NCBI GenBank assembly: GCA_017409905.1 | Contig: JAFQRV010000048.1 | Span: 1-49,127 of the forward strand | Origin: Bacilli bacterium | Lineage (GTDB): Bacteria; Bacillota_I; Bacilli_A; ML615J-28; CAG-313 | DNA: 49,127 nucleotides | Direction: 5' to 3' | Shown: piece after piece, positions 2,510 through 48,707 of the stretch | Position numbering within the stretch: the first letter of the stretch is position 1 | How the letters are laid out: the number at the start of each line of letters is the position of its first letter | Notes under the pieces: model-generated | What the model saw: the letters and a program-made list of their open reading frames with translations, nothing else | The model's database searches: none | What the model was told of the DNA's origin: nothing | Translations under genes and position numbers: made by a program

Positions 2510-2518
2510 GTGAATTTT

Positions 2519-8741: not shown

Positions 8742-8761
8742 TATTGAAAGGTAAAAATATT

Positions 8762-10834: not shown

Positions 10835-10841
10835 TTAGATT

Positions 10842-31745: not shown

Positions 31746-32630
31746 ATGAAAAAACAAATTAAAGATCGCATAATTGGCTATATTTTACTTACGGTAATGT
31801 ATATAGTAGCATTTTTTACAGGTCAATTAATATACGATATGTTTGAAATACACCTATTGTTAAAGGTTTTATTAATGACAGTTTCTGCAACCCTAGTCAT
31901 CTTCTTATTTTCTTGTATGCTTCAAAACTCTTCAGTTTATGATCCATACTGGAGTGTATTTCCTATAATAACTGCAGTAATGCTATTTGATATGGGAAAA
32001 GTTACACATCCACTTTCAATCTTAATGTTAGTATTAATTATTCTTTGGGGTATAAGATTAACGCTTAATTGGGCATATACTTTCAAAGGATTAGATTATG
32101 AGGATTGGCGATATACAAAATTTAGAAACGAACATCCTAAACTTTGGCCGTTATTAAATTTATTGGGGATTCATATGTTTCCAACACTAGTTACATATCT
32201 TTTAATGTTAGCACCGATTTGTTTTTTTGATACAGTAAATAATGGTACAATTACTAATCAGTTTAATTTATCAAGTATTTTATCCATTATTATAATGCTT
32301 GCAGCATTAATAATTGAATTATTAGCTGATCTTCAATCACATATTCATAGAAAAAAATACCCAAAAACTTTAATAAATACAGGTCTTTGGAAAGTATCAA
32401 GACATCCAAATTACTTTGGTGAAATCATCTTTTGGTTTGGAGCATATCTATTATTAATCTCTATAAATAGTAACATGTGGATTCTATTCTTAGGCCCATT
32501 AGTAAATTTATTAATGTTTGTATTTGTGAGTATTCCAATGATGGAAAAACGTTTAATGAACAAATATCCAGAATATCAAACATACCAAAAAACAGTAAAT
32601 GTTTTAATCCCATTAAAGAAAAAGCAATAG
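31746..32630 (+). CDS. DUF1295 steroid-5-alpha-reductase-like membrane protein
   Basis: A 294-residue protein with about seven hydrophobic helices. The C-terminal signature (GLWKVSRHPNYFGEIIFWFG ... PMMEKRLMNKYPEY) is that of the DUF1295/steroid-reductase-like family, related to ICMT. The N-terminal part has SVYDPYWSVFP. Function in bacteria is unknown; NAD(P)H-dependent reduction of a lipid is plausible. It starts 2 bases after rsfS, so it belongs to the same transcript, and its TAG lies in a terminator stem. Confidence 0.85.
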   Translation: MKKQIKDRIIGYILLTVMYIVAFFTGQLIYDMFEIHLLLKVLLMTVSATLVIFLFSCMLQNSSVYDPYWSVFPIITAVMLFDMGKVTHPLSILMLVLIILWGIRLTLNWAYTFKGLDYEDWRYTKFRNEHPKLWPLLNLLGIHMFPTLVTYLLMLAPICFFDTVNNGTITNQFNLSSILSIIIMLAALIIELLADLQSHIHRKKYPKTLINTGLWKVSRHPNYFGEIIFWFGAYLLLISINSNMWILFLGPLVNLLMFVFVSIPMMEKRLMNKYPEYQTYQKTVNVLIPLKKKQ

Positions 32631-32658
32631 TATTTCCCATACTGTTGCTTTTTGATTT
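32619..32658 (+). terminator. Terminator of the yqeG-DUF1295 operon
   Basis: A 15-bp stem with one T-G wobble (32619-32633 with 32639-32653), 5-nt loop, T-rich end. The DUF1295 stop codon is inside the left arm. Confidence 0.9.
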
Positions 32659-32665
32659 TTTCCGC

Positions 32666-32681
32666 TTTTTTTTTTTTTTTT
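32666..32681. repeat. 16-base T homopolymer
   Basis: An uninterrupted run of 16 T right after the operon terminator. Homopolymers of this length slip during replication and may vary in length between cells; it is outside any gene and about 180 bases upstream of the -10 of the SipW operon, so an effect on that promoter is speculative. Confidence 0.9.
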
Positions 32682-32735
32682 CTGGAAAATTCCTTTTGAT
32701 GAAAACACTTTCATTGGTTTTTTGAGCGATATTTC

Positions 32736-32764
32736 TTTACCCTTTGAAATAAAAATAGTATAAT
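32736..32764 (+). promoter_or_regulatory. Possible upstream promoter of the SipW operon
   Basis: TATAAT (32759-32764) with a weak TTTACC -35 (32736-32741) at 17 bp. It lies in the same AAAAATAGTATAAT sequence that recurs 98 bases downstream, suggesting two tandem promoters or a duplicated control region. Confidence 0.4.
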
Positions 32765-32799
32765 GGCTATTGTAGTTTGCTGAAATTTAGGTGAAATTC

Positions 32800-32862
32800 T
32801 TTAGTTAAATTTTACCAAATTTTTAGAAAACATTGACTAAATTTAACTAAAAATAGTATAAT
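32800..32862 (+). promoter_or_regulatory. Main promoter of the SipW operon overlapped by a 13-bp inverted repeat
   Basis: TTGACT (32833-32838), 18-base spacer and TATAAT (32857-32862) form a good promoter. A perfect 13-bp inverted repeat (TTTAGTTAAATTT 32800-32812 and AAATTTAACTAAA 32839-32851, 26 bases apart) has its right arm inside the spacer. This placement suits a repressor binding site or a DNA loop. The regulator is unknown. Confidence 0.65.
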
Positions 32863-33023
32863 ATTCATATAAAAAAAGTAATTTTTTCTTCTTATTGGCT
32901 TGGCATTTAGTACATTACTTGCAAAAGTGAAGAAAAAATAGTAAAATAAGAACATAAATAGATTAAAATGGGGTACTAGATACTCCTAATATCTCGTTTA
33001 TATTCTTAGGAGGCATAGAATAT
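32863..33023 (+). promoter_or_regulatory. Long structured leader of the SipW operon with sequestered ribosome site
   Basis: The leader of about 150 bases contains a long-range stem (ATTTTTTCTTC 32881-32891 with GAAGAAAAAAT 32929-32939) and, near the start codon, a stem pairing CTCCTAA (32983-32989) with TTAGGAG (33006-33012), which includes the Shine-Dalgarno AGGAGG. Folding would hide the ribosome site for the signal-peptidase gene at 33024, so translation may be switched by an RNA, protein or ligand. No known riboswitch class is recognised. Confidence 0.5.
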
Positions 33024-33710
33024 ATGGAAAATCAAAAGAAATTAACGACTCTTAATATTGTAGGTATTATACTAATCGTTATATTCCTACCAATCATAAT
33101 GATTAATCTTACAATTGTAGTTAAAGGGTTAACTAAACCAGAAGAAGTACCAATGGTATTTAATACTGCACCATTAATTGTTATATCAGACTCAATGACA
33201 ATTGATAAAAAAGCAGGCACTGGTGCTTTTAATAAAGGTGATTTAATTTTTGTTAAAAAAGTAGATCCTAAAACTTTAGAAGTAGGAGATATTATTACAT
33301 ACATTTCCAACGATAAAGAAGGAAGTATTATAACTCACAGAATCGTAAGTATTTATGAAGACGGTTCATTTGAAACAAAAGGGGACTATTCTCCAGGGTA
33401 CGATAGAGACCCAGTCAAATATGAACAGGTTGTAGGTAAATACACAGGTAGAGTAGCAGGTGCAGGGGACATGGCAATGTTCTTCCAAACACCAACTGGT
33501 GTTATCGTATTAATCGGTGTACCACTTGTTGCGATATTAGTGGTTGACTTCTTCCAAAAGCGTAAGGAAAACGATCAAGTAAGTTCAGAAAAAGCCGAAC
33601 TTGAAGCTGAACTTGCAAGACTAAGAGCTGAAAAACAACAACAAGAAGAGCAACAATCTTCTGAAACTTTAGAAGTTACAGAATCTGTAACTGATCAACC
33701 TGAAGAGTAA
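33024..33710 (+). CDS. sipW: SipW-type (ER/archaeal-type) signal peptidase I
   Basis: A 228-residue membrane peptidase. A helix at about 10-34 is followed by the catalytic Ser in VISDSM (S57), the box NKGDLIFVKKV, and a catalytic His in IITHRIV (H105); a Ser-His pair rather than the bacterial Ser-Lys marks the SipW/ER class. GDYSPGYDRDPV and a second helix (about 152-174) follow, then a Glu/Gln-rich coiled-coil tail to the end. SipW processes TasA-like fibre subunits in Bacillus. The next genes encode such substrates, and a second SipW-like gene occurs at 36952. Confidence 0.9.
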   Translation: MENQKKLTTLNIVGIILIVIFLPIIMINLTIVVKGLTKPEEVPMVFNTAPLIVISDSMTIDKKAGTGAFNKGDLIFVKKVDPKTLEVGDIITYISNDKEGSIITHRIVSIYEDGSFETKGDYSPGYDRDPVKYEQVVGKYTGRVAGAGDMAMFFQTPTGVIVLIGVPLVAILVVDFFQKRKENDQVSSEKAELEAELARLRAEKQQQEEQQSSETLEVTESVTDQPEE

Positions 33711-33826
33711 TTCTTCAGCTAACTAATTTTGGTATAAAGCTAGTCACAAGCTCTATACACATAAAGTTTATAACTTTTTTATAAAAAACTTATAAAAAAA
33801 ATATTTAGAAAGGATAGACGAAAAAA
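33711..33826 (+). other. Intergenic spacer between sipW and TasA-like gene
   Basis: The spacer has a TTTTGGTATAAAG stretch (33728-33738) that could be an extended -10 of an internal promoter, and a small AAAGTT/AACTTT hairpin (33763-33777) followed by T, which may attenuate read-through. AGAAAGGA supplies the ribosome site for 33827. Both signals are weak. Confidence 0.35.
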
Positions 33827-34423
33827 ATGAGAAAAAATAGATTATTTATTTTAGGTATCTTTACTGTTATGGTAGCTTTAGTTTCTTTATCATTAGTATC
33901 TGGTACTTGGGCTAAATATACTTCAACTGCTGAAGGAACTGATACTGCAAAAGTTGCTAAATGGGATGTTAAATTTGAAGGTAGTACAGCTACAAGCGCT
34001 GCTGCTATTGAAGTAGATTTATTCGATACAATTACAAATGTAGATGGTTCTGCAGAAGTAAATGTTAAAGCTGAGGGTAATTTAATTGCCCCTGGTACTG
34101 CTGGTAAATTTGAATTTAATATGAAAAATGAATCAGAAGTTACTGCTGCTTACTATGTTGATTATACATACACTGGTAATTTACCATTAGAATTCTCTTT
34201 AACTGGTGCGGATGATAGTTGGACAAAGGATATTAACACATTAGATATTGCTGAAGGATCTAAAGTAACTATGGCAATGGAATCTGCTGAAGTTAAAATT
34301 ACAGTTTATTGGAGATGGGTATTCGAAGTAGACGCTGCCGGAAATGCAACTGATACTGGTTTAGGTCTTGCCCCTGAAACAGGTAAAGTAGACGCTAAAT
34401 TCACATTTGTACAAGTTGACTAA
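33827..34423 (+). CDS. SipW-dependent TasA/CalY-like surface protein
   Basis: A 198-residue exported protein. The N-terminus (MRKNRLFILG ... LSLVSGTWAKYTSTAEGTDTAKVAKWDV) is the typical SipW-dependent signal: a hydrophobic helix, then A-x-Y-x-S and the AKWD motif of TasA/CalY (camelysin) proteins. The remainder is a beta domain with EVTAAYYVDYTYTGNLPLEFS and a late WRWVFEV. TasA forms amyloid-like biofilm fibres in Bacillus. Here it is most likely the main fibre subunit, cut by the neighbouring SipW. It is the smallest, simplest substrate in this operon. Confidence 0.82.
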   Translation: MRKNRLFILGIFTVMVALVSLSLVSGTWAKYTSTAEGTDTAKVAKWDVKFEGSTATSAAAIEVDLFDTITNVDGSAEVNVKAEGNLIAPGTAGKFEFNMKNESEVTAAYYVDYTYTGNLPLEFSLTGADDSWTKDINTLDIAEGSKVTMAMESAEVKITVYWRWVFEVDAAGNATDTGLGLAPETGKVDAKFTFVQVD

Positions 34424-34473
34424 TTTTTAGACAACAGAATTTAAAAAACAAAAAAATAATATAGCTATATAAT

Positions 34474-34507
34474 AAACCACCAAATTGTGTGGCCAATTTG
34501 GTGGTTT
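34474..34507. other. Strong hairpin between TasA-like and membrane-anchored genes, no T-tract
   Basis: A 14-bp perfect stem (AAACCACCAAATTG 34474-34487 with 34494-34507) and 6-nt loop. Neither side has the T run of a terminator. It may stabilise the 3' end of the TasA-like message after processing, giving more of that subunit, or act as a partial terminator. Confidence 0.7.
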
Positions 34508-34593
34508 GATAGCATATATCTTATTATTTATCAAAGAATATAAGTGATTGTATTTTTTGATAAGTAATAAAATATATAGAAGGAGGGGCATAG

Positions 34594-35418
34594 ATGGCTA
34601 GAAAAAGTAAGAAAATGCTAAGTTATTATGCTTGGTATCGTAAGATTAGAACGCCTAAGTTTAAATCTGTCGCAAGATTTAAAGGTAATAAAATCTTAAC
34701 AAGTGATCCTGTATTTATCTCTAAAGTGCAAGAAGCATCTACTATGAAGCTTGAATATGCACCTATTCTTGGACATATTGGATTACAATACAATATTATT
34801 AATGAAACTAATAATGTTGTTGTGGGTAAGGTTGATAGAGCGTTAAACGTTTATACAGCTGATGAAAAATATGTTGGAACTATTTATAATCAATTAAAGA
34901 TTATTACAAGAGTTATTATTTATGCATTACTAATTGCTTTAGTATTAGCTTTAGGTTTAGGTAATTTACATAGTACAGGTTATTTAGTAAAACCAGAAAA
35001 TGTTATTATTAGTGAGCATGATGGTGGTGTAGTAGTAGATAAATGGAATATTTTATTAGATGCATATAGCAGAAAATTAATTGTTCCAGAATATGAGTCT
35101 GCATATCATTTCTATGTTACTAACGATAATTATGCAGATTGTTATATTGCATTTGATTTTGATGAAGAAAATGAATGGAATTTAAATATTGAATATCGTT
35201 TATATTATGATGGAGAGTATCTAGTTGGTGGTAATGATTCATGGGTTAACTATGATGTATTAAAAGCTAGTGAAATACTTGTTAAAGCAAAAGAAAAAGA
35301 AAAGTTTAGATTGGATTGGCGTTGGGCTGATACAGATAAAAAACAAACTGAATTAGGTATTGAAGGGGCAGCTACTTATACAGTAGTTGTTAAGATAACA
35401 ACACAGTTTGTTAAATAG
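34594..35418 (+). CDS. Membrane-anchored protein with TasA-like extracellular domain
   Basis: This 274-residue protein is not named by a known family. Residues 1-105 are a basic, probably cytoplasmic domain, a membrane helix spans about 108-126, and the outer domain (about 140-274) has a TasA-like plan: FYVTNDNYADCYIAFDF, NIEYRLYYDG, FRLDWRWADTD, LGIEGAATYTVVVKITTQF. These strands parallel those of the neighbouring SipW substrates, but the signal-peptide motif AKYxS is missing and the helix is internal. A membrane base or anchor for the fibre is inferred. GGAGGGG precedes ATG 34594. Confidence 0.6.
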   Translation: MARKSKKMLSYYAWYRKIRTPKFKSVARFKGNKILTSDPVFISKVQEASTMKLEYAPILGHIGLQYNIINETNNVVVGKVDRALNVYTADEKYVGTIYNQLKIITRVIIYALLIALVLALGLGNLHSTGYLVKPENVIISEHDGGVVVDKWNILLDAYSRKLIVPEYESAYHFYVTNDNYADCYIAFDFDEENEWNLNIEYRLYYDGEYLVGGNDSWVNYDVLKASEILVKAKEKEKFRLDWRWADTDKKQTELGIEGAATYTVVVKITTQFVK

Positions 35419-35440
35419 TTTTTAGAAAGGAGTCACTAAT

Positions 35441-36946
35441 ATGATAAAGTTCTTAAAAGATAAGTGGATATTTTTAGTATTTGTTTTAGTAGTGTTTGGT
35501 ATTTTGTCAATTAGTGGCAATTTCAAACAGTCAACATCTTCCGCAAAATATCGTTCTGAGGTATCAGGAACAGATTCGGGAAGAATTGCTAAATGGGATA
35601 TTAAAACAATATCTAAAAAAGATGGAGCTGAAATTAGTTTAGATACAGGATTTGGTACTACACTATCTACTGGTAGTACTGGCAACTGGTTTATTGAAAT
35701 TTCAAATAGTTCAGAAGTTAATGCAGCTTTAAGTAATGATACAACATTTAGATTTAGAATTGATCATACTACATTTGATGGAACTGAAGAAACAATTAAT
35801 TGGAATTTCTTAAAAGATAGCGAGTTAGAAGTAATTACTAATCCAGTTACTATAAAAATTACTATTTATAAATCTACAATTGATTCTTTAAATATTGCAT
35901 ATCAAACGACTACTATTGTTGATGATAATCCTGTAGTTACTACAATTACAAAAGCTCAATATGATGCTAAATCAGATGAAGAGAAAAAAGCTTATGCAGA
36001 AGTAGTTACTAATTCAGGGTATGAAGTATTTACAACAACTGCACAAAGTTTTAATTTAGATTCTGAAGAAGTTCATGGTAATTTGGTTTATTACTATTAT
36101 AAAGATATAAAGGTAAGTGAAATTGCTGGATTAACAGATGCTATTAAAAAACTTACTATGAATGATACAAATTCAAATATTACAATTGGTATTAATTGGG
36201 CCACTGGTCAAGATAAAGGTGGAGGAACAGGAGTTTCTGACACAAAGGTTTATAAAACTTTTGAGATATTCGATGCGAATGATCTACCTAATGATTTTAC
36301 TGCTAAGTATGAAGAAATAGGAAGAAAAACTTATGGAAAATGTCTTGGACACGAAGGGGAACATACACATATAGAATGTCCACAATGTGGATTATGTGTA
36401 GATGCAAATTGTAATGGACAAGATTCAGAAAAATGTTTAGGACATGAAGAACATGTACACACTATATGTGCTGAATGTGGATTGTGTATGGATAAAAATT
36501 GTGATGGACCTGATGAAGCAAAAACATATGTATTTGCTTATAGAGATTGCTATTTCTTTGATTATCAAATATTCACTTCAAGCTTTGGTGGAAATGGGGA
36601 ACCATACTTTAAGTTTATAGGTGACTACCAAGGTTCAGAATTAATTAAGTATTATAGTGAGATTATTGAAACTGAAGATGAAAATACAATTAAAGCTTAT
36701 TTAAGTTTTACTGATACTGATGCTAATGGAACAATATCAGAAACTGAAATCATGAATCAAATTACAGCTGCTGTTACTGATGCTCCTAATTATAAAAGAT
36801 TACAACAAATATTAGATTTTTGTAGATATAATGTTCATGGAGAATTTATTCATGATAATGATTTATATCAAGAATCATTATCATACTTACAATATGGTTT
36901 AACATGTTCAGTTCAAATGACAATAAAGGTTGAACAATTAGATTAG
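35441..36946 (+). CDS. SipW-dependent surface protein with duplicated Cys/His module
   Basis: A 501-residue exported protein with a SipW-type leader (MIKFLKDKWIFLVFVLVVFG ... SSAKYRSEVSGTDSGRIAKWDI). A TasA-like beta region follows. At about 300-360 two tandem units of the pattern C-L-G-H-E-x(3-5)-H-(T/V)-H-x(2)-C-x(2)-CGLC-x-D-x-NC-x-G form a likely metal-binding or disulphide-linked module, seen in surface proteins of anaerobic Bacillota. The C-terminal part (370-501) includes DTDANGTISETEI, an EF-hand-like loop. AAAGGAG precedes the start. It may decorate the fibre. Confidence 0.65.
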   Translation: MIKFLKDKWIFLVFVLVVFGILSISGNFKQSTSSAKYRSEVSGTDSGRIAKWDIKTISKKDGAEISLDTGFGTTLSTGSTGNWFIEISNSSEVNAALSNDTTFRFRIDHTTFDGTEETINWNFLKDSELEVITNPVTIKITIYKSTIDSLNIAYQTTTIVDDNPVVTTITKAQYDAKSDEEKKAYAEVVTNSGYEVFTTTAQSFNLDSEEVHGNLVYYYYKDIKVSEIAGLTDAIKKLTMNDTNSNITIGINWATGQDKGGGTGVSDTKVYKTFEIFDANDLPNDFTAKYEEIGRKTYGKCLGHEGEHTHIECPQCGLCVDANCNGQDSEKCLGHEEHVHTICAECGLCMDKNCDGPDEAKTYVFAYRDCYFFDYQIFTSSFGGNGEPYFKFIGDYQGSELIKYYSEIIETEDENTIKAYLSFTDTDANGTISETEIMNQITAAVTDAPNYKRLQQILDFCRYNVHGEFIHDNDLYQESLSYLQYGLTCSVQMTIKVEQLD

Positions 36947-36951
36947 TAAAT

Positions 36952-37500
36952 ATGGCTAAGAAAATATTAAAAATTAGTGAATATATCCTTTTTGGTATTA
37001 TGATTGTTTTGATTATAATATTTGGGTATTATATAGTGCAAAGATTAATACATAAAGATGAACCAGCAAAGATGTTTGGATATTATTTGTATGAAGTTTC
37101 ATCTTGGAGTATGTATGATGAAGAAAGTGAAGATTCTTTATCAAAAGGTGATTTAATTTTTGTTAAAAAAAGAGTTGAAAATGATTATGAAGTAGGTATG
37201 GTAGTAACTTATGAAACAGATACCAATAAACCTACTACTCATAAAATAATCGAAATAAATGGTGAAATGATTACTACTCAAGGTATTAATAAAGAAGGTA
37301 ATACGAGTGCTGATACACCATTTCATGTGGATAATATAATAGGAGAAGTAAAAGGGGTTTGGAGAAATTATTCTAAATTCATGGAATTTATATTATCACC
37401 ATTAGGTGTTGTTATAATACTTGGTGGAGGGTTTTTAGTAATAGAGGGTTTATCTTTATTACATAAAAAAGTATACAAAGAAGAAGAAAAAGAAAATTAA
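36952..37500 (+). CDS. Second SipW-type signal peptidase
   Basis: A 182-residue membrane protease. It has an N-terminal helix (about 8-30), catalytic Ser in VSSWSM (S53), KGDLIFVKKRV (the same box as the first SipW), catalytic His in TTHKIIEI (H97) and a C-terminal helix (150-170). It lacks the Gln-rich tail of the 33024 enzyme. No Shine-Dalgarno precedes ATG 36952, only 5 bases after the previous stop, so it is probably translated by coupling. A second dedicated peptidase suggests it serves different substrates, perhaps those encoded downstream. Confidence 0.85.
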   Translation: MAKKILKISEYILFGIMIVLIIIFGYYIVQRLIHKDEPAKMFGYYLYEVSSWSMYDEESEDSLSKGDLIFVKKRVENDYEVGMVVTYETDTNKPTTHKIIEINGEMITTQGINKEGNTSADTPFHVDNIIGEVKGVWRNYSKFMEFILSPLGVVIILGGGFLVIEGLSLLHKKVYKEEEKEN

Positions 37501-37519
37501 TTGAAAGGAGAGATGATGT

Positions 37520-38167
37520 ATGAAGAATAAGAAAAGAATTATTCTAATTGTCTTTTACATAGCTTTAGTAGGTCTTGTATATTTTACATCATCTACTCTA
37601 TCAAAATATGTTTCTACAAATAAAACTGAAGCTGACTTTACATTAGGTGAAAAGTTATACTTCGAATATATAAGAGGAGATTTATATCGTGGTGACCAAT
37701 TAATTATTGGTGTTCCTATTGATGTTCCAATTATGAAAGATGGTGTTCAGGTAGGATCTAAAAATGTAATTGAAACTATGAACGTTGCTCCTGGAGATGA
37801 ACTAAGATATACATTTACTGTAAGTAATAAAAATGAAACAGGAACTGAGTATAACAGTGTTGAAGCAGAGTATCACGTATCAGCTACAGCAATTCTACAA
37901 ATGCCTACTAAACAATCAAGTTATTCATTTAACTGTATAATAAAATATGCAGAAATTGGTACAGATGGTAAACCACTTACATATACTGATTTACCTCAAG
38001 ATAGAAATTTGGACTTACCTAAGTATTTAGGTACTCCTGCTACTGAATCTAAATATGCGTTTGAAGTACAAGTCATTTTAGATGGACAAGTTGAAGCTAC
38101 ATCTAAGGAAGATTATATTGGTGCAACATTGACAATATATCTATTCATAGATGCTGCGAATAAGTAG
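37520..38167 (+). CDS. SipW-dependent surface protein (215 aa)
   Basis: A short exported protein with leader MKNKKRIILIVFYIALVGLVYF, then SSTLSKYVSTNK, the SipW-type cleavage context. The remaining ~180 residues are a beta-sandwich-like domain containing NVAPGDELRYTFTVSN, which is typical of the TasA-like fold. There is no Cys cluster and no membrane segment at the end. GAAAGGAG precedes ATG 37520. Its function as a minor fibre component is inferred from the operon. Confidence 0.65.
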   Translation: MKNKKRIILIVFYIALVGLVYFTSSTLSKYVSTNKTEADFTLGEKLYFEYIRGDLYRGDQLIIGVPIDVPIMKDGVQVGSKNVIETMNVAPGDELRYTFTVSNKNETGTEYNSVEAEYHVSATAILQMPTKQSSYSFNCIIKYAEIGTDGKPLTYTDLPQDRNLDLPKYLGTPATESKYAFEVQVILDGQVEATSKEDYIGATLTIYLFIDAANK

Positions 38168-38175
38168 GAGGGTTT

Positions 38176-39408
38176 ATGCAAGCTAGAAAAAGATTTTTTA
38201 GATTGTTATCAGTATTAATAATATTAGTTGCTGTTTTAACAGTTATGGTTTGTTCATTATTAGTCACTGATACAAAGACAAGATATATTAAAAGAGAACA
38301 TGATGAAATAATAGCTCATTATACAGACTTATATTGTGATAATACAGGTGATGGGGCTGTAGTAGCTTTAGAAAATGGCGTTGGTTATGTTAATTTTGAA
38401 ATTATGAATTATATTGGCGAAGATGTAACTAAACGTGATATTACATACAATATTCAAACAATAGATACATTTTATAATGAGAATGGTTATGAAATTGAAA
38501 GTTCTGCTTTAGCAAGTGCTCCTGCATTATATGTTAAAGATGTTTGGGGTAAACCTCAATTAATTGAAAAAGATTCTTATAAATATGATGTTTCAATTAT
38601 AAAAAATGATGGTGAAAAAATTGAAGGTGCAAATGTAGAGTATCCTTACTTATTCTCTTATGAAGAAAGAAAGGAAAGTGCTGTAGGTAAAGTACATAAT
38701 GTTACAGTTAAACTAACTCGGACTGACTCAAGTGAAATGAAAGTTGGTTCTACGGAAAAAGTTTCATTAGTTATTCAACTAGAAAAACCATATAAAGAAG
38801 TTTATATTATTGATATAGTTGTTTCAAATAGATATATTGTATTTTCAACTAAGAATGTTGAAGAATTTGAAATAGATATGGTTGATGTTCATGTTCAAAC
38901 ATATGATATATTCAAATATGATAGTTTAGGAAATGTAAATAATGGCTTAACGACTAATACTAAATATTCATCTAGACCATTTAAAGTTGTGTTTGAATGG
39001 AAAGATATGATAGTAAATGAAAATGATTTTAATTTTATTCATAATAGTCAAAATGGTGTAATGTCTGGAGTATTCGATTCAACTACTGATGGAACAGATA
39101 TTTCAAAACCATTTGTTGAATCCATTAATCAATCAAAAAATTATGGTTCACTTACAATGTATGTACCACAATCAGCAAGTTTTAGTTTTAGTTGTTTACC
39201 AACAAGTGAAAATGCATGTATGATTGCTAAAGTGTATGTTTATAATGATGCTTTAGCAACTGGAACAACATCACCTATTGGTTATGTTGCTTATGATAAA
39301 AATAATTGGGGTGGATATTCAGAATTGGATATTACTCAAGCTACTCTTCCATCAAATGCAACTGATGGTTTAACAGTAGTTTATAAATATGAAGAAGAAC
39401 AAGAATAA
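38176..39408 (+). CDS. Exported surface protein of the SipW operon (410 aa)
   Basis: The protein has an N-terminal membrane/signal segment (MQARKRFFRLLSVLIILVAV) followed by a TDTKTRYIKREHDEI stretch resembling the post-cleavage region of SipW substrates. The mature part is beta-rich, with no recognised domain. Two Cys occur at its SFSCLPTSENACMI segment (about 335-350). GGAGGG precedes ATG 38176. Position between a small subunit and the giant adhesin suggests a linker or assembly role. Confidence 0.55.
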   Translation: MQARKRFFRLLSVLIILVAVLTVMVCSLLVTDTKTRYIKREHDEIIAHYTDLYCDNTGDGAVVALENGVGYVNFEIMNYIGEDVTKRDITYNIQTIDTFYNENGYEIESSALASAPALYVKDVWGKPQLIEKDSYKYDVSIIKNDGEKIEGANVEYPYLFSYEERKESAVGKVHNVTVKLTRTDSSEMKVGSTEKVSLVIQLEKPYKEVYIIDIVVSNRYIVFSTKNVEEFEIDMVDVHVQTYDIFKYDSLGNVNNGLTTNTKYSSRPFKVVFEWKDMIVNENDFNFIHNSQNGVMSGVFDSTTDGTDISKPFVESINQSKNYGSLTMYVPQSASFSFSCLPTSENACMIAKVYVYNDALATGTTSPIGYVAYDKNNWGGYSELDITQATLPSNATDGLTVVYKYEEEQE

Positions 39409-39428
39409 TTAGAAAGGAGATAAAGACC

Positions 39429-42400
39429 ATGAAGAATGGCTCTAAGAAATTTTATATATTAGGTTCAATAGTAACTATGATATTAATCGTCTGCGTAGCA
39501 GTTCTGATTGGTATTTTATCAATAAAACCTAATAAGACAGAAGCTGCTACTGCTACTCATTATGAAATAGTAGTTGATAAGTATTCAACTGTTAGCGTAT
39601 ATGTAACAGGTTCTGGTGTTTCACTTTATAAGCAAGATTTACCTGGAGATGAACCAGGAAGTGATAATTTCAGATCAGATGTTATTCATGATATTTATTT
39701 AGTAGAAAAAAATACTGAAGTAACAATCATTGCGGTTAATGAATTGAAGATATTTACTAAATGGATTGCAACTGATTTAGAAGGCAATGATTATACTGAC
39801 GTAAATGGAAAAACCAGTTCACATTTAACATTTACTCCTACTCAAGATATAAGAATAGATACTGAAAGAAGAGATGCTACTTCAAAAGATACTGGCAAAT
39901 ATATGGGTAATCGTTTCTTAATTGAAGGTGCTAAAGATTTATTCTTAATTCAAAAAGCATTTGAAAAAGGAAATGGTGTTACTGCCGCTGATTTTAATGC
40001 AAACATTTATACTGCAGTTGCTGCTAATGATAGTAGTGTTACTTTAAAGCAATTCTATGAAGATATGTTTGCAGGTGATACAGATTGGAAAGCTCTTGCA
40101 AATGATACAGCAAAAATTAATGCAATTAATAACACATTCTTTGCAAGATTACAAACTGGTTATTATTTGGTTTCTCAAAACTTTGCTTATTTAGATAAAG
40201 ATGGAAATATGCCGTTTATTGGTATTGGTAAGTATATAGATGCAACTCACGATTACTCATTCAAAGGTGTAATGTGTGGTTTAAATGAAAACAATATTTC
40301 TACAATTTCTCTTACTATTCAAGGCCAACAAAATGCTGGAAATTTATACTATGGATTGTTCGGCTATCTAGGAAATAATGCCGTGGTAAGAAACCTTGAA
40401 GTTGAAACATCTATAGGTATTACTAAGAATGAATCTGCAACTTCAAATGTTTATGCTGGTGGTTTAGCTGGTTATTCTACTGGTGCATTTATATATAATG
40501 TTAATGCTCTTGCTAGACAATCTATTGAAATTAAATCTACAACTGCATGCGGAATTTATGCTGGTTCATTATTTGGTTATATGGAAGGCGGAGTTGAAGA
40601 ATACGCTAATGTAGTTGCAAATGGTCAAGATGCTGCATGGATTATTAAATCTGAGAGTCAAACTAATATTCATACAGGTTTACTTGCAGGTCTTGCACGT
40701 AATACTTATGTAAATGATATGCTAGCTCAAGTTTCAGGTTATGCTGCAACTGTTAATAGTTCAGCAGATAATTCAAATATTTACATGGCAAATTTATTTG
40801 GTAAATATGAAGCAACAACAAATTCTTCAGCTAAAAAATTATATATTAAAAATATTCGTATCTCTGGTACAGGAGCAGAAAATATCGCTGCAACAATAAA
40901 TAATGGTAATGCATATGTTTCAGGTTTAATTGGACATATAAATTCTGCAACAAGTATTACACAAAAAATTCTTATTGGAAAAATCAATTTCCAAATTACA
41001 AATAAAGATGTTACTTCTAATATTACAGCAACTTCTGCAGACAGTAGTAGTTCAGCTAATTTATATACAGCTGGTTTATTCGCAAGAGTTGAAACAGCTT
41101 ACTTAGAAGGAACTAATGAATTCAAACAAAATATTACAGAACAAAAAGTAGATAATGAAAAAATCTACTATAGATATGATTTTATATTTAATGCAAATTT
41201 ATATATTGAATCTAAGAATAATGGTACTTGTACTGGTGAAAAGGGTAAAGCTATAAGTGGTGGTTTGGTAGGTTTAGGCTTATTTGAAATTAGAGGTACA
41301 TCTGGTGATTATTCAGACATTTTAATTTCTCCTGAAGACTATAAACTAACAATTAAAGCTACTCAATCTTCAACAACTAGTGGTGGTGGAGATATTTCAA
41401 ATCAATGTATAGTTGGTTTAATAGTTTCTTCTTATGAGAATACTGATGATAGCTATACTTTTAATTATATGAATGTTTATAGTAATACTACTTCAATTAT
41501 TGCAACTAGAGAACTAAGTTCTGATGCTATCGGTGATGTAACTGGTGGAGGATTTATTGGTTATTCACAAAATGTAAATTATGAATATATTAATTTATAT
41601 TTAAATGATTCAGAATTACGAGTTGAAGGTTTATCATATGATAAACAATTAAATGCGGAAGGTAATAATGTACATGCTGGTGGATTTATTGGCAGATTTG
41701 AAGGTCCTTCAACATCAACAAAATCGACTATTAATAATATTCAACTTGCGGGATTCGATTATAATAAAGAATATAAAGAAGATGGAATTACTTCCGCAAC
41801 ATTAAAAGATAAGGTTTGTGGAACAACATTAAAGATTACATCTATTCAAAATACAATTCCAGGTAGAGTGCAAAGCTGGTTTACTAGTAATGGTGACTAT
41901 AAAGGTGAAAACTATACTGGCGGATTAATAGGTTTGATAAGATATGGAAGTGTAAGTTTTTCAACTTATTATGGTTCTGAAAGTGATGAAGATTATATTC
42001 AAATGCAATGTCATCAATCCCCTGATTCAGCATTCTGCGGTGGATTGATAGGTTTTATTAAAGAACAAGATGGTAGTGTTGATATTAGTGTTGAACATTG
42101 TAAAGTTTTGAATGGAAATATATATGGCGCAGCAACTGTTATTGAAGAATATGATAATCCCGATATATATATTGGTGGTTTAATAGGGGCTATATATTGC
42201 AATGTTGCTATAACAAATAGTATTGAAAATTGTTCTGTAGAAAATAGTAGAGTGTATGGAAATGCAAATGAAAATATAGATTTATTTACCGGTGGAATAT
42301 TAGGGGTTATGACATGGAATGGTACACTAAATATTACAAATACTTATGTTTATAATTCTGATATTCAATCTATACATAAATCTAACGCATCAATAAACTG

Positions 42401-45400
42401 GGATCATCTAAGTTCATATGCTGCTGGGTTGGTGGCTAGATCGCATTATGCAAGGGGTATTTTTGGTGTAAGTTCATCTTCTACTCTTAATGTTAGCAAT
42501 TCTGGTGTTTTTGATACTAACGTTATTGCTAGAAGTGAAAATGGTTCTGCAGTTTGTGGTGGTGTTGTATCTTATACTTATGCTGGTACAATTGAAGATA
42601 ATTATTCAAATGCTAAATTGATTGCAGAAGGAAAAACTGGATCAACAAAATATGGTATAGGCGCTAAGGATGGAAACAATAATCCTACCAATTCATTCTA
42701 TGTTTTACAAAATGCAACTGGTGCCACTAAAGGTACTGCTTTAGATTTTGCTAATCAAAATTTAAATAATAGTACAGCATTTGATTTATTTAGTAATTTA
42801 GGTACAAATTATAAAACAAGTTCTAAGTATTATGTAGTTTTACAAGATGACAGTATATTTGCTGTCAATACTGGTATGACAATTAATTATGATGGAGACA
42901 CTAAAACTTCTAATAATGCAGATGTTTATGTAAATATAAGAGAGGGTGGTAATACAACTCCACCTACTTCATATACATCAATTGATGATTTACATGGAGC
43001 TGGTTGGTTTAAATTAGGTACTGTATTAGTATATAATGGTGGAGCACAAGATGCAGGAGATATTACTGCTCCTAGCATTACATATCCAAGTGGAAGTGCT
43101 GAATATAAATATCAAGATTCTATATTTAAAAACTTAAATTATCCATATGATGATGTTGAAGATATTGGTTATACAGAAAGTGATATAGATACAAATATTG
43201 GAACAATTAGTTTTAAAGATAAATATACAATTAAAGTAAGAGATAATATTCCACAAATTAAAATAGCATTTAAGATTGATTCTGGTGAATCTGCGCTAAC
43301 TCCAATCTTCTATGATGCAAGTGGTAATGTTATTGATATTACTAGTGAAGAAGGTACATATACATTCACAAATACTGCATCTGGTAGTAATACGGTTTAT
43401 GAATTTGTATTTACACCAAATACAGAAATTACAAATGATACAATTATTAATATTGGATTTAAGATTGGTAGTACTAATTATTTGTCATCTGGTTTCCAAT
43501 TAGATATTAAAGCTAATAAAAGAGTTATTGAGTATTTAACTTATGCTGATTATACTCCACCTATTAACTATAAAGAAGTTGAAAATTTAGGTTCTTCAAG
43601 CAATCCTTATCTAATTAAGCAAAGTGATTCTAATCAAGATAGTGTTACTAAATTAATACCAGTATTTACTAGAATTAATGATTTGCCAATTGGAACTGAT
43701 TCTAATGGTGATCCAATTTATCCGGAATATAATAGTGAACTTAACGTTGACTATGTAAATTATACAATATCTTCTGGTTTAGGTACTATGAAGACTAACG
43801 GTGAATTCGTTGCTGCTACCGGAACAGCATCAGGAACTATTACCGCAACTCTTAAGAATGGTACTGGAACTTCTGGTGATTCTAAACTTGTAAATGTTTC
43901 TTTAGTTTCAACTGTTGATGTTACATACTCTGCAATCGGTGCTGAAGTTTCTGGTTTAACATATGCAACATCAAACAAAAATTATATTTTAGATATAAAT
44001 TGTATGGAACACTATGGTGGTATTCCTACTAAATTTAATATTACAATAGGTAGCACTTCTATTAATTTATTAGATGCTGCTCAACTTACTAATCATTTAT
44101 GGATTACAAATGATAAAGGTGAAAAAGCATGGGATTTAGATAGTTCAAGTTATCGACTAGTAATTCCTAATACATCAATTAATGGAGATATTGATATTGA
44201 GATTGAAATGAATGTTGTTTATAGTATTACATTTGATTTACAATGTGAAGCATTTAATCCAAATTATACTGGAGAACAAACACTAACATTTAAAGTATTA
44301 GGTGGAGATACATTCTCAAATTATTTTACATCTCGCACTGAAGAAATTAATGATTTCTTACAAGAAGCAACTAGTGTTATTGATGGTTATTTATGTACTG
44401 GTTTCTTCTTAGTTAATGAAGCAAGTTCAGTTGTTTCTTATGGTGTATCATTTGATGAATTGAAAGATACTTCAATTCCAATTAATACATCTTATACATT
44501 CTATGCTAGATGGAACTTCTTAATTGAACTTGTTGAAGCTCCTGGTACAAGCATAATGTCTAGATTTAAAGATACATTTATGATCGAAATTAAAGATGAT
44601 GAATATAGTAATATGGTTAATAGAACAATTGCTGTTCCTATTAATGCTAATAAAGGCTATGTATTCTCAGTTGAAAAAGAAGATGGTTTCGTCGGGGAAG
44701 CTGATGTTAAAGCTTATGTTATATCTAACAGAGGAACTTCAACACAAACTATCAATGAAATTACAATTGAAAAATATCATGAAGATATGTATTTATACTT
44801 TATAGCTCCTGAAAAGATTACTGGTTACTTAGTAATTGTTACATCAGTTAGTAATTCAGAAGTTATAGTTGGTGAAAATACTGCTCAAGTTACTGATGAA
44901 ATATTACCTGAAGATGGTATTTATACATTTAAGTATGTAGTTAACCATAAGAATTCAGTAGATGATGAAGGTAATCCTTCTAAATCATATATTTATGATA
45001 GTGGCATTAGCGATAATCCAGAAAGAAATTTAGATTTAGACAAAGATTTATATATTCAATTCTTTGATCAAGTGTTTGATAAAGAAAGCAATAAATTAAA
45101 ATTAGTTCCTAAATTATTAGAAAAGGGAACAATAATAGAAGTTTATTATAATTTATTTATTAATGATAGTTCAACTCCTACATCTTCATCTGTTGGAACA
45201 TATGTAGTAGGTGAAGGTGGCGCAAGCAATATGTTATTAAGTGCATTCAAGAAACTTAATAATGAAGAAGACTTTATTGATACTCCAAAATTTAGAGATT
45301 TCCTTGCTGGAAAAGAAGCAGTATCTGAAGTTTATTACTTTGTTGTTACTCCACCAAATGGATATGACAAATCTAGTAATAAAGATGGATATGGTAATAT

Positions 45401-46472
45401 CGATAACGATGTAGTATTTGTTGGATATTATGATCCAGGTAAAGATGATGAGTTGAAAAACGAAAATTATAAAGAATATGATTTCTATGTTCAAGGTAAG
45501 AGAACAGGTAAGTCATTTGCGAATAAACCTATTCAAGATCAACAAGGAAGTTTTGATGAGTTTAAGAATGAAACTTCATTACAACGAAAGATCTTCGCTC
45601 TTACTCCAAGTAGAGATACAAGTTTAACTGTTGATGGCAATACATATAAATTTAAAGATAATACATTATTCAATTATTTAGATATTTTTATGACTAATAG
45701 TGCAATATCTAATGGTGTTATTCGTTTAGAAGATAATGAAGATAATAATACTATTATAAGCTCTGGTTTAGTTGAATATGGTATTAATAAATTAAGTTTA
45801 GAATTAGGTTATTCAACAGGTAACGTTGACATCTATGGAAGTTATTTTGATACTACTACAAATACATATAAAGAAGAATTGGTTTCAACAATTAATGTAG
45901 ATAAGATTGACTATAATAAATATGAAGTAGAATTTAGTAATGATGAAAGAATTTATTATTACTTTAGAATAGATAATGTATCTTTAAGTGAAATAAGATT
46001 AAAAGAAATTATTCTTACAGATCAATATTATTTAAGAGAATATGATATTTCTGCTTCTACATATAAATCTTTAGGTGTAGTTGATGGCTTATACAAATAT
46101 GTAGTTATTGATTCAATTGTTGGTGACGCTAGACATGAAGGTCTACATTTCATGTTGGCATTATATTTAAAGAATTCAAGTGGTATTGTTGTTGATATTA
46201 TAGAAACAACTCCAGTAGTTTTAAATGTAAGCTATATTGATGCTGAAGGTAATACAGCAACTGGTACTATTACAAGTGTAATTACTGCTTCAAAAGGCAA
46301 GATGGCAATTTATTATGATTTAAGTGCCTTCTTAATTGAAAAAAATATTACGGAATTTACTTTCACAATAAGTGAACTTCCTGATGGCTATCAAGTACAC
46401 TGTGTTCAATTAATTGAATCAAGTATTATTGAAAAACCTGCAATGGGTGAAGTAAGAGTAAGTATTAAATAG
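39429..46472 (+). CDS. Giant GLUG-repeat surface adhesin (2347 aa)
   Basis: An exported 2347-residue protein with an N-terminal signal helix (GSIVTMILIVCVAVLIGIL) followed by NKTEAATATHYE, a possible SipW-like site. Residues ~330-1120 are rich in the GLUG beta-helix motif (G-G-L-(A/I/V)-G-x-(S/I/M), e.g. GGLAGYSTG, GGLIGLIRYG, GGLIGAIYC). The middle has Ig-like beta domains. Near 1590-1700 there is an InlB-type segment (GYLCTGFFLVN ... SYTFYARWN). The last 600 residues are unassigned beta sequence. It has neither LPxTG nor a C-terminal membrane helix, so retention may depend on the other operon products. Adhesion or biofilm function is inferred. Confidence 0.75.
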   Translation: MKNGSKKFYILGSIVTMILIVCVAVLIGILSIKPNKTEAATATHYEIVVDKYSTVSVYVTGSGVSLYKQDLPGDEPGSDNFRSDVIHDIYLVEKNTEVTIIAVNELKIFTKWIATDLEGNDYTDVNGKTSSHLTFTPTQDIRIDTERRDATSKDTGKYMGNRFLIEGAKDLFLIQKAFEKGNGVTAADFNANIYTAVAANDSSVTLKQFYEDMFAGDTDWKALANDTAKINAINNTFFARLQTGYYLVSQNFAYLDKDGNMPFIGIGKYIDATHDYSFKGVMCGLNENNISTISLTIQGQQNAGNLYYGLFGYLGNNAVVRNLEVETSIGITKNESATSNVYAGGLAGYSTGAFIYNVNALARQSIEIKSTTACGIYAGSLFGYMEGGVEEYANVVANGQDAAWIIKSESQTNIHTGLLAGLARNTYVNDMLAQVSGYAATVNSSADNSNIYMANLFGKYEATTNSSAKKLYIKNIRISGTGAENIAATINNGNAYVSGLIGHINSATSITQKILIGKINFQITNKDVTSNITATSADSSSSANLYTAGLFARVETAYLEGTNEFKQNITEQKVDNEKIYYRYDFIFNANLYIESKNNGTCTGEKGKAISGGLVGLGLFEIRGTSGDYSDILISPEDYKLTIKATQSSTTSGGGDISNQCIVGLIVSSYENTDDSYTFNYMNVYSNTTSIIATRELSSDAIGDVTGGGFIGYSQNVNYEYINLYLNDSELRVEGLSYDKQLNAEGNNVHAGGFIGRFEGPSTSTKSTINNIQLAGFDYNKEYKEDGITSATLKDKVCGTTLKITSIQNTIPGRVQSWFTSNGDYKGENYTGGLIGLIRYGSVSFSTYYGSESDEDYIQMQCHQSPDSAFCGGLIGFIKEQDGSVDISVEHCKVLNGNIYGAATVIEEYDNPDIYIGGLIGAIYCNVAITNSIENCSVENSRVYGNANENIDLFTGGILGVMTWNGTLNITNTYVYNSDIQSIHKSNASINWDHLSSYAAGLVARSHYARGIFGVSSSSTLNVSNSGVFDTNVIARSENGSAVCGGVVSYTYAGTIEDNYSNAKLIAEGKTGSTKYGIGAKDGNNNPTNSFYVLQNATGATKGTALDFANQNLNNSTAFDLFSNLGTNYKTSSKYYVVLQDDSIFAVNTGMTINYDGDTKTSNNADVYVNIREGGNTTPPTSYTSIDDLHGAGWFKLGTVLVYNGGAQDAGDITAPSITYPSGSAEYKYQDSIFKNLNYPYDDVEDIGYTESDIDTNIGTISFKDKYTIKVRDNIPQIKIAFKIDSGESALTPIFYDASGNVIDITSEEGTYTFTNTASGSNTVYEFVFTPNTEITNDTIINIGFKIGSTNYLSSGFQLDIKANKRVIEYLTYADYTPPINYKEVENLGSSSNPYLIKQSDSNQDSVTKLIPVFTRINDLPIGTDSNGDPIYPEYNSELNVDYVNYTISSGLGTMKTNGEFVAATGTASGTITATLKNGTGTSGDSKLVNVSLVSTVDVTYSAIGAEVSGLTYATSNKNYILDINCMEHYGGIPTKFNITIGSTSINLLDAAQLTNHLWITNDKGEKAWDLDSSSYRLVIPNTSINGDIDIEIEMNVVYSITFDLQCEAFNPNYTGEQTLTFKVLGGDTFSNYFTSRTEEINDFLQEATSVIDGYLCTGFFLVNEASSVVSYGVSFDELKDTSIPINTSYTFYARWNFLIELVEAPGTSIMSRFKDTFMIEIKDDEYSNMVNRTIAVPINANKGYVFSVEKEDGFVGEADVKAYVISNRGTSTQTINEITIEKYHEDMYLYFIAPEKITGYLVIVTSVSNSEVIVGENTAQVTDEILPEDGIYTFKYVVNHKNSVDDEGNPSKSYIYDSGISDNPERNLDLDKDLYIQFFDQVFDKESNKLKLVPKLLEKGTIIEVYYNLFINDSSTPTSSSVGTYVVGEGGASNMLLSAFKKLNNEEDFIDTPKFRDFLAGKEAVSEVYYFVVTPPNGYDKSSNKDGYGNIDNDVVFVGYYDPGKDDELKNENYKEYDFYVQGKRTGKSFANKPIQDQQGSFDEFKNETSLQRKIFALTPSRDTSLTVDGNTYKFKDNTLFNYLDIFMTNSAISNGVIRLEDNEDNNTIISSGLVEYGINKLSLELGYSTGNVDIYGSYFDTTTNTYKEELVSTINVDKIDYNKYEVEFSNDERIYYYFRIDNVSLSEIRLKEIILTDQYYLREYDISASTYKSLGVVDGLYKYVVIDSIVGDARHEGLHFMLALYLKNSSGIVVDIIETTPVVLNVSYIDAEGNTATGTITSVITASKGKMAIYYDLSAFLIEKNITEFTFTISELPDGYQVHCVQLIESSIIEKPAMGEVRVSIK

Positions 46473-46473
46473 T

Positions 46474-46505
46474 AAAGAGATGATTTAAAATCATCTCTTT
46501 TTTTA
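46474..46505 (+). terminator. Terminator of the SipW/adhesin operon
   Basis: A 13-bp perfect dyad AAAGAGATGATTT/AAATCATCTCTTT (46474-46486 with 46488-46500), followed by a T run. The 86 bases to the next gene hold a TATATT-like -10 and no good -35. Confidence 0.9.
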
Positions 46506-46782
46506 TATAAAAATTTTTAAAAGAAAAAAGTAAAATACTTATTTTTTAGTATTATATTAATAGAGGAATATATATTAATGAAAGGACAAATATGAATAAA
46601 GAATCAAAATATGATATTGTAAAATTTATTGATGGAGAATTTGAATTAGAAGTAAATGTAAGCCCAAAAGAAGAAACCATATGGATGACTGCAAGTCAAA
46701 TGGCTTTATTATTTGGACGTATGAAAAAACAATAAGAAAACACATAAATAACATTTTTGTAGATAAAGAATTGGAATATTTT

Positions 46783-46809
46783 AACAACACGCAAAAAATG
46801 CGTGTTGTT
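46783..46809. repeat. 27-base palindrome in the frameshifted RhuM gene
   Basis: Arms AACAACACGCA (46783-46793) and TGCGTGTTGTT (46799-46809) with an A5 loop. Centre (46796) is 55 nt after the His codon of KHINNIF (46741). It encodes NNTQKMRVV in the continuing frame. Confidence 0.95.
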
Positions 46810-46907
46810 GGTGTTAAACTACTTCATGAGTTATATCCAGGAGTACTAGAGAAAAGATATGGTGTATCAGAAGAATATATTGATGACTATGAATGTGATG
46901 AAAAAAG

Positions 46908-46930
46908 CAATGTGCAAAAAATGCACATTG
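46908..46930. repeat. 23-base palindrome in a RhuM linker remnant
   Basis: Arms CAATGTGCA (46908-46916) and TGCACATTG (46922-46930) with an A5 loop. It encodes SNVQKMHIG, the same layout (x-Q-K-M-x) as the palindrome at 46783. Confidence 0.9.
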
Positions 46931-47100
46931 GAAATTCGACAAGCTAGAAGAATTATGAGTTAGATGTAAAAATATATTATGTAATTATCTAAGTTAGCTT
47001 AGTTGCATATTTTGCATTTGAACTAATTTTTAAAAAATAACTATTTTAAAAATGTGAAAAGTATAAAGTATATAAAATTTATTATGAGGGGTGATAAGTA

Positions 47101-47403
47101 ATGAGTGAAACAAAATATGAAGTTGTTAAATTTATAGATGATAACATAGAATTAGATGTTAATATTGATCCATACAGTGAAACTATATGGCTGACACAAT
47201 CACAAATGGCTATTTTGTTTGGTGTAGATATTAGTAGAATTAGTCGGCACATAAAAAAGGCATTAAATGAAGAAGAAATTAATTCACAAAGGAATTTGCG
47301 TAAAACGCAAATTGCAAACTCAGATAAGTTAGTATATTTATATGATTTAGATGTTATTATTTCTGTAGGATATAGAGTTAAATCAATTTGCTTTATTATT
47401 TAA
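47101..47403 (+). pseudogene. Truncated RhuM-like gene
   Basis: A 100-residue frame with the RhuM N-terminus (YEVVKFIDDNIELDVNI, ETIWLTQSQMAILFGVDISRISRHIK), the variable linker NSQRNLRKTQIANSDK and the core YLYDLDVIISVGYRVKS. It then ends abruptly in ICFII and a stop. Just there another paralog's sequence (QFALLFNVQ) begins in a different frame, so the gene was cut by a deletion or recombination between copies. GAGGGGTGATAA provides a strong ribosome site, so the fragment may still be translated as a stand-alone DNA-binding domain. Confidence 0.75.
47293..47313. repeat. 21-base palindrome in the truncated RhuM gene
   Basis: Arms AATTTGCGT (47293-47301) and ACGCAAATT (47305-47313), loop AAA. 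Centre 47303 is 55 nt after the His codon (47248). It encodes NLRKTQI. Confidence 0.95.
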
Positions 47404-47679
47404 TGTGCAAATACCTGCGGTTAATAAACACATAAAAAATATTATTTTATCAAATGAGTTAGAAGAAGCATCAACAATTTCCAAAATGGAAACAGTTCGA
47501 AATGAGGGAAATAGAATAGTTAAAAGAATACTAAAAAAGTACATGATAGATATATCATTATAGATAGAGATAAACTATATCATTTAGAACATTCAATAAA
47601 AGATTTAGGAAAAAAGATAAGTACAATTAGTGAATCAGATAAAGAACTAATTAAAGAATTATTAACCCACTTAAACTAA
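47384..47679 (+). pseudogene. Chimeric RhuM remnant: N-terminal piece joined to a 3' end of another paralog
   Basis: The first part (47384-47533) reads QFALLFNVQIPAVNKHIKNIILSNELEEASTISKMETVRNEGNRIVKR, a RhuM N-terminal domain and linker without start codon. At about 47534-47539 it meets, out of frame, a sequence nearly identical to the 3' end of the complete gene at 47829: HDRYIIIDRDKLYHLEHS... ending in LLTHLN and TAA at 47677-47679. The internal 600 bases of the gene are missing. It is a deletion hybrid between paralogs and makes no full protein. Confidence 0.8.
47478..47492. repeat. Short palindrome in the chimeric RhuM remnant
   Basis: TTTCCA (47478-47483), AAA, TGGAAA (47487-47492). 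Weak alone (6-bp arms), but its centre (47485) is 56 nt after the His codon (47429), exactly as in the copies at 2709 and 48013. It encodes SKME. Confidence 0.6.
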
Positions 47680-47764
47680 AGGAGATATATGAATAAAACA
47701 AGTAATTATGATATTGTAAAATTTATTGATGGAGAATTTGAATTAGAAGTAAATGTAAGCCCAG
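47539..47764 (+). repeat. Direct repeat shared by two RhuM units (partner 48558-48783)
   Basis: About 226 bases recur with an offset of 1019 bases. Each copy holds the 3' end of a RhuM/PLD-like gene (HDRYIIID to LLTHLN), its stop, the CTAAAGGAGATATATG ribosome site and the start of the next gene (MNKTSNYDIVKFIDGEFELEV). A handful of mismatches are visible. This is the footprint of duplication or recombination in the cluster, and the shared 5' portion also occurs at 46592. Confidence 0.85.
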
Positions 47765-47832
47765 AAGAAGAAACCATTTGGTTAACTTTAGATCAAATTG
47801 CAAAATTATTTAATAGAGGTGATAAATTATGA
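47689..47832 (+). pseudogene. N-terminal stub of a RhuM-like gene
   Basis: A 47-residue frame, beginning MNKTSNYDIVKF and running through ETIWLTLDQIAKLFNR to GDKL, with AAAGGAGAT ribosome site. It stops where the helix-turn-helix should continue, at TGA 47830-47832, which overlaps the next start (ATGA). It appears to be a leftover of recombination, although translation coupling to the complete gene at 47829 could make it act as a leader peptide. Confidence 0.7.
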
Positions 47833-48698: not shown

Positions 48699-48707
48699 AG
48701 GAGATAT

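Follow-up and report, generated by a model that had tools for sequence, protein, structure and literature searches.

In TasA fibres, every subunit donates an N-terminal strand that completes the one after it, and TapA is thought to supply the first strand (PMC9674648, PMC10151520). A SipW-dependent subunit polymerises outside the cell in Clostridium perfringens, where SDS-resistant ladders or filaments of BsaA have been seen (PMC7395162). An aromatic residue at position P2' has been described as the feature through which TasA is processed poorly by ordinary LepB, and has been tied to cleavage by SipW (PMC10269814). Our search of the open-access literature retrieved no report of a fibre operon with paired SipW genes. 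The window analysed here (the whole stretch of 49,127 nucleotides) corresponds to contig C48 in a MAG of 1.37 Mb and about 71% completeness. It holds eight co-directional genes on the + strand at 33024-46472, SIP1, TAS1, ANC, TAS2, SIP2, TAS3, TAS4, and ADH (Table 1). We lean towards reading them as genes for a surface fibre of the TasA-like, donor-strand kind, arranged in two modules that each have a peptidase.

All eight open reading frames listed in an earlier note on this DNA were confirmed in position, and all lie on the + strand. Ribosome-binding-type sites (AGGAG/GGAGG-type or AAGGA) are clear upstream of seven of them; SIP2, which starts five bases past the TAS2 stop, has no obvious AGGAG/GGAGG/AAGGA site. 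Promoter-type matches were no commoner than chance across the region, the best one being that upstream of SIP1, and a comparable TTGACA..TATAAT stretch is present in a related locus (L034). The flanking genes have other functions (RsfS and a DUF1295 protein upstream, RhuM-like genes downstream). None of the eight proteins has an LPXTG ending, and no sortase match was found among them. There was also no sign of a mobile origin for the operon, since a phage collection held no relative of SIP2 and a plasmid collection yielded nothing closer than distant, chiefly archaeal signal peptidases. Elsewhere in the window, several RhuM-like proteins, part of them truncated, are encoded downstream of the operon (46681-49127) and near the left end (2510-3517). 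A five-gene cluster at 5585-14610, whose domains were read by eye, includes a TIR/SEFIR-like protein at 7704, an ATPase resembling MinD/ParA and bearing a KGGSGR motif at 10842, and, in the product of 11722, an acetyltransferase-like domain at the C-terminus; it may be a conflict or signalling system.

Table 1. Genes and candidate signals of the operon, in window coordinates (arrow, presumed leader cut).
Feature	Position	Strand	Description	Basis or location
Promoter match	32833..32862	+	Sigma-70-like, TTGACT-18-TATAAT, 11/12	Upstream of SIP1
SIP1	33024..33710	+	SipW/archaeal-type signal peptidase I, charged C-terminal tail	TIGR02228, SEC11 homology
Upstream hairpin	33732..33758	+	Apical loop AGUCACA	Upstream of TAS1
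TAS1	33827..34423	+	Putative major fibre subunit, 198 aa, leader SGTWA↓KY	Conserved family, AlphaFold2, TasA fibre match
Downstream hairpin	34473..34508	+	Strong; apical loop UGUGGC complements upstream loop; no + strand U-tract	Downstream of TAS1
A+T-rich hairpin	34519..34570	+	Long; like ones at the same place in L034, L035, L036, L073	Before ANC
ANC	34594..35418	+	Cytosolic N-domain, one transmembrane helix, TAS1-like beta domain, no cleavable leader; putative base/initiator	
TAS2	35441..36946	+	SipW-leader protein (SSA↓KY), 501 aa, putative minor subunit	hhalign, orthologs
SIP2	36952..37500	+	Second SipW/archaeal-type signal peptidase, GIN for GD(N) motif	TIGR02228, tree, motif
TAS3	37520..38167	+	SipW-leader protein (TLS↓KY), 215 aa	Leader alignment, four orthologs
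TAS4	38176..39408	+	Probable SipW-leader protein (TKT↓RY), 410 aa, putative adaptor to adhesin	RYIK.E.DE motif
ADH	39429..46472	+	2347-aa surface protein, repeated GG(L/I)xG stretches, A-x-A-like leader end, no LPXTG	
Terminator-like hairpin	46474..46500	+	Hairpin with T-tract	Operon end after ADH

The operon is conserved beyond chance, with its gene order kept across genera. The full eight-gene order is also found in a genome of the same genus (G001) and in one of another genus (G003). In a third genus (G009) the genes from TAS2 to ADH are kept, on a contig that starts just upstream of TAS2. Because the TAS4 profile matches just these four of 15 family genomes, the operon can be regarded as accessory. 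These operon-bearing relatives are uncultured Bacilli, two of which (G001 and G009) come from sheep colon and goat caecum. The TAS1-family profile reaches further, with relatives in 33 of the 395 genomes sampled from the class. The pairing of peptidases is more general: at least two TIGR02228 genes lie within 10 kb in 20 of the 43 genomes of the order, so paired SipW-type peptidases are normal here, unlike in Bacillus, and the rarity that the earlier note had implied for two peptidases in one operon was not borne out. A second type of multi-SipW array was also observed (L042, L043, L045, L076, L077, L080, L084, L088), with AWF-type leader proteins, two or three peptidases, a giant protein, and recurrent proteins of about 515 and 620-820 aa that have no SipW leaders.

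Both peptidases scored above the TIGR02228 cut-off of 51.85 bits (SIP1, 78.4 bits, E 5e-22; SIP2, 55.3 bits, E 6.5e-15), and neither reached the 190-bit cut-off of the Bacillus SipW equivalog NF046067 (71.4 and 45.7 bits, respectively). Since a joint SIP1+SIP2 profile matches human SEC11C/SEC11A, the two are assigned to the Ser-His type, as had been proposed. The catalytic Ser and His (the latter replacing Lys) belong to S-x-SM and TH motifs that are kept in all seven orthologs and align with SEC11A/C. While the SIP1 orthologs are 80% and 51% identical, identity between SIP1 and SIP2 is 23-26%. The GD motif is kept in SIP1 and most relatives; all SIP2 orthologs have GI, with a nearby Asp retained. 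The MAG has a third TIGR02228 gene (G000:C33:46288; L038 9238-9846) beside other large secreted proteins, which could be a separate system or contamination.

Of the four proteins for which leaders of the SipW type had been suspected, TAS1, TAS2, and TAS3 have them and TAS4, for which the earlier note had been less sure, probably does. In each, an N-terminal hydrophobic helix ends in [AST]-[KR]-Y, unchanged in every ortholog. By analogy with TasA (PMC10269814), cleavage at the corresponding point would give TAS1-4 an aromatic P2'; the residues concerned are WA↓KY in TAS1, and every leader protein and ortholog has KY or RY there.

No Pfam or PDB sequence profile ties TAS1 to TasA. The TasA/camelysin model PF12389 gave no Pfam match for TAS1, TAS2, or ANC and an E of 0.13, below the cut-off, for TAS3, and a PDB search with sequence profiles of TAS1, TAS3, TAS4, ANC, and ADH gave no credible match. 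The fold of TAS1 was predicted with AlphaFold2 from 33 homologs (mean pLDDT 78), and the result was used in place of an earlier, poor model from 7 sequences (pLDDT 58). When the 33-homolog model was searched with Foldseek, the cryo-EM TasA fibre 8aur ranked first of 350,542 PDB chains (probability 0.99), a match that is statistically weak (E 4.3e-3, TM 0.40/0.35); donor-strand pilins (PapG pilin domain, FimA/FimG) came next below it. The 7-sequence model likewise had 8aur as its top match. These predicted structures lend moderate support to TAS1 as a TasA-like subunit by fold.

The product of the third gene, ANC, had been described as a TasA-like membrane-anchored protein, and its TAS1-like domain, transmembrane helix, and cytosolic N-domain bear this out. 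Its outer domain matches the TAS family with an hhalign probability of 99 (E 4e-18). Because this subunit-like domain cannot leave the membrane, ANC is best read as a base or initiator, and because it lacks an [AST]-[KR]-Y-type site, it is probably not a SipW substrate. ANC may play the part of TapA; in a comparison by profile names, no Pfam/NCBIfam match names any operon gene TapA. Genes of the ANC type lie directly 3' of a TAS gene in ten loci (families f1, f7, f11, f21), and the anchors differ among relatives, with two helices in L036 and L073 and a proline-rich stalk in L093.

The N-terminal part of TAS2, which has orthologs in L034, L035, and L037, matches the TAS family with an hhalign score of 96.7. 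For TAS3 the leader region does so at 94.6, and the match of TAS4, in which RYIK.E.DE is invariant in four orthologs, is weak (hhalign 42). Likeness to TAS1 in the last two proteins is confined to the leader or its vicinity. At 36337-36520, TAS2 of the window also has two tandem Cys/His-rich units (CLGHE..H.H..C..CGLC.D.NC.G) that are absent from the L034, L035, and L037 orthologs; the segment has the look of a metal-binding ribbon that was inserted into a secreted protein.

The dissimilarity of TAS2, TAS3, and TAS4, each of which is single, and the weakness of the TasA fold match would also suit non-polymerising surface or matrix proteins, in which a membrane-tethered complex of ANC and TAS proteins presents ADH and no fibre forms. 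We consider this unlikely, however, given that the fold of TAS1 is closest to the TasA fibre and donor-strand pilins and that separate RNA elements at TAS1, described below, point to high output of TAS1 alone.

The last gene of the operon encodes the giant protein ADH, which has four orthologs that are 37-57% identical to the window protein and resembles the giants of other multi-SipW arrays (hhalign 96.4). It had been called a 2347-residue GLUG adhesin. The size and the giant gene were confirmed, but the GLUG part was not: at an E limit of 1 the window protein had no match to the Pfam model PF07581, and one ortholog gave an E of 0.012. Because no GLUG model matches the window protein, "GLUG adhesin" is to be taken as a resemblance and not as an assignment. 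The leader of ADH ends in an ordinary A-x-A-like sequence, and the protein is therefore probably not a SipW substrate.

In a peptidase tree of 80 sequences, the members encoded immediately upstream of a TAS gene group with one another, with 5 label changes compared to 13.1 for shuffled labels. TAS-adjacent peptidases form a 16-row group (support 81/94) and SIP2 falls in another group (91/91), although group supports are not all high and the second peptidase of L093 falls among the "first" ones. Outside the four operons, the nearest kin of SIP2 are the short third peptidases of the L042, L045, L077, L080, and L088 arrays, where the genes after the peptidase encode one or two leader proteins and a giant protein. 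From the tree, this layout, and the likeness of ADH to the other giants, we divide the operon into two modules, SIP1-TAS1-ANC and SIP2-TAS3-TAS4-ADH, with TAS2 between them. The arrangement supports, short of proof, the suggestion of the earlier note that there may be two substrate classes, with SIP1 and SIP2 perhaps each serving its own neighbours. Likewise supported is the order that had been read from the genes, which opens with a likely major subunit, continues with a membrane-anchored TasA-like protein, and closes with a giant surface protein.

Alternatively, SIP1 and SIP2 could be redundant, SIP2 being a helper that raises processing capacity while both enzymes cut every leader of the operon. 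The same [AST]-[KR]-Y end in all four leaders, with no visible difference in cleavage site, would fit such a scheme, as would the presence of one peptidase alone near several related loci (L044, L046, L095, L147). We nevertheless judge redundancy improbable because the two proteins are so dissimilar, fall in separate tree groups, keep fixed positions across families, and differ in the conserved GD (SIP1) or GI (SIP2) motif. The low identity, separate groups, and motif difference exclude a recent duplication.

The TAS1 cistron lies between hairpins with complementary apical loops. Such loops (GYCACA/UGUGGC) flank TAS1 in seven loci, which belong to families f1, f2, and f18 (that of the window, L034, L035, L036, L039, L073, and L139), and in the TAS1-type loci examined they are either both present or both absent. 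In an eighth locus (G002) the upstream hairpin is present and the downstream side is masked by Ns; a 24,217-aa open reading frame that carries a TAS1 leader in the same genome (C9:15990-88000, L135-L138) was rejected as an artefact of a run of 72,000 Ns inside a TAS1-like gene. Stem sequences vary between loci yet still pair, a C/U change in the upstream loop preserves pairing, and in L073 the outer loop pair is altered on both sides (GCCACU/AGUGGC). The loop match was equalled by at most 3 of 300 dinucleotide shuffles in six of the seven loci. For L039, 33 of 300 shuffles were as good, and the global minimum-energy fold lacks the downstream loop while the local hairpin is present. GTGGC tops its own permutations for stem-loop matches in 834 kb, and the six stem-loops having 10 or more pairs, 4 or more of them G-C, all lie just after TAS1. 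These statistics serve as a guide only, because the motif was identified post hoc and the loci share ancestry. No Rfam family scored above its gathering threshold over 32500-35000. The hairpin in the TAS1-ANC gap was rejected as a terminator for want of a + strand U-tract.

The complementary loops suggest that the flanking hairpins may form a kissing loop that protects or boosts the TAS1 message. Such a loop would shield the TAS1 cistron from nucleases or fix a processing site, leaving the shaft subunit in excess. The motifs do make a short inverted repeat around one gene, but that the inverted TGTGGC/GYCACA pair should instead be DNA sites for a regulator or recombinase is quite unlikely, since both lie in hairpin loops whose stems differ between loci yet pair, the outer loop pair of L073 changes on both sides, six bases is short for a recombination site, and TAS1 is inverted in no locus.

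In the fibre model that we favour, SIP1 would remove the leader of TAS1, whose new N-terminus would serve as the donor strand, and TAS1 would be the abundant fibre subunit. ANC would stay in the membrane, where it would start the fibre or hold its base. SIP2 would mature TAS3 and TAS4, and perhaps TAS2, as minor or adaptor subunits that attach the giant ADH to the fibre. The hairpins flanking the TAS1 cistron would bind each other through their loops in the mRNA, protecting or isolating the cistron, with the result that TAS1 is made in excess over the remaining operon proteins. The more specific proposal, in which the two SipW-type peptidases mature separate subunit classes (shaft and adhesin adaptor) and stoichiometry is set by a kissing loop closing the shaft mRNA, is offered tentatively, as a possibility that we hold with some doubt.

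Among described systems, the C. perfringens sipW-bsaABCRSD operon shares with the present one a sipW gene in first position, the major fibre protein in second position, and an RNA structure before further secreted proteins (PMC7395162). It differs in having one SipW and its own two-component system within the operon, and neither a membrane-anchored copy of the subunit nor a 2300-aa adhesin has been reported for it (PMC7395162). The gap after bsaA holds a read-through terminator (PMC7395162), whereas the hairpin found here has no + strand U-tract. The Bacillus subtilis tapA-sipW-tasA operon shares a SipW-type peptidase, the TasA-like subunit fold predicted for TAS1, and an accessory protein, which there is believed to initiate the fibre or anchor it (PMC9674648, PMC10151520). 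It has one peptidase, and its TapA is processed by SipW and secreted; ANC, by contrast, retains its membrane helix and is related to TAS1. In the sipW-tasA/calY region of Bacillus cereus, several TasA-like proteins are likewise served by SipW, together with the assembly factor CapP, but there is one SipW and a giant adhesin gene is undescribed in the cluster (PMC4292775, PMC13082335). The camelysin Pfam model, in contrast to B. cereus, is not matched by the operon proteins here. Archaeal bundling pili, likened here by description, are also TasA-related donor-strand fibres, of archaeal origin (cited in PMC9674648).

Set against these systems, the new points are the module structure, the membrane-held relative of TAS1, and the paired hairpins. 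A subunit relative that is bound to the membrane offers one answer to the question of how Gram-positive fibres made without sortase stay on the cell, and paired hairpins would be a simple RNA route by which one operon yields many shaft subunits but few adhesins. Where the Bacillus systems cited have one SipW per TasA operon, these gut Bacilli lineages have two or three, and because these peptidases occupy fixed positions, the substrate specificity of SipW-type enzymes is directly testable here.
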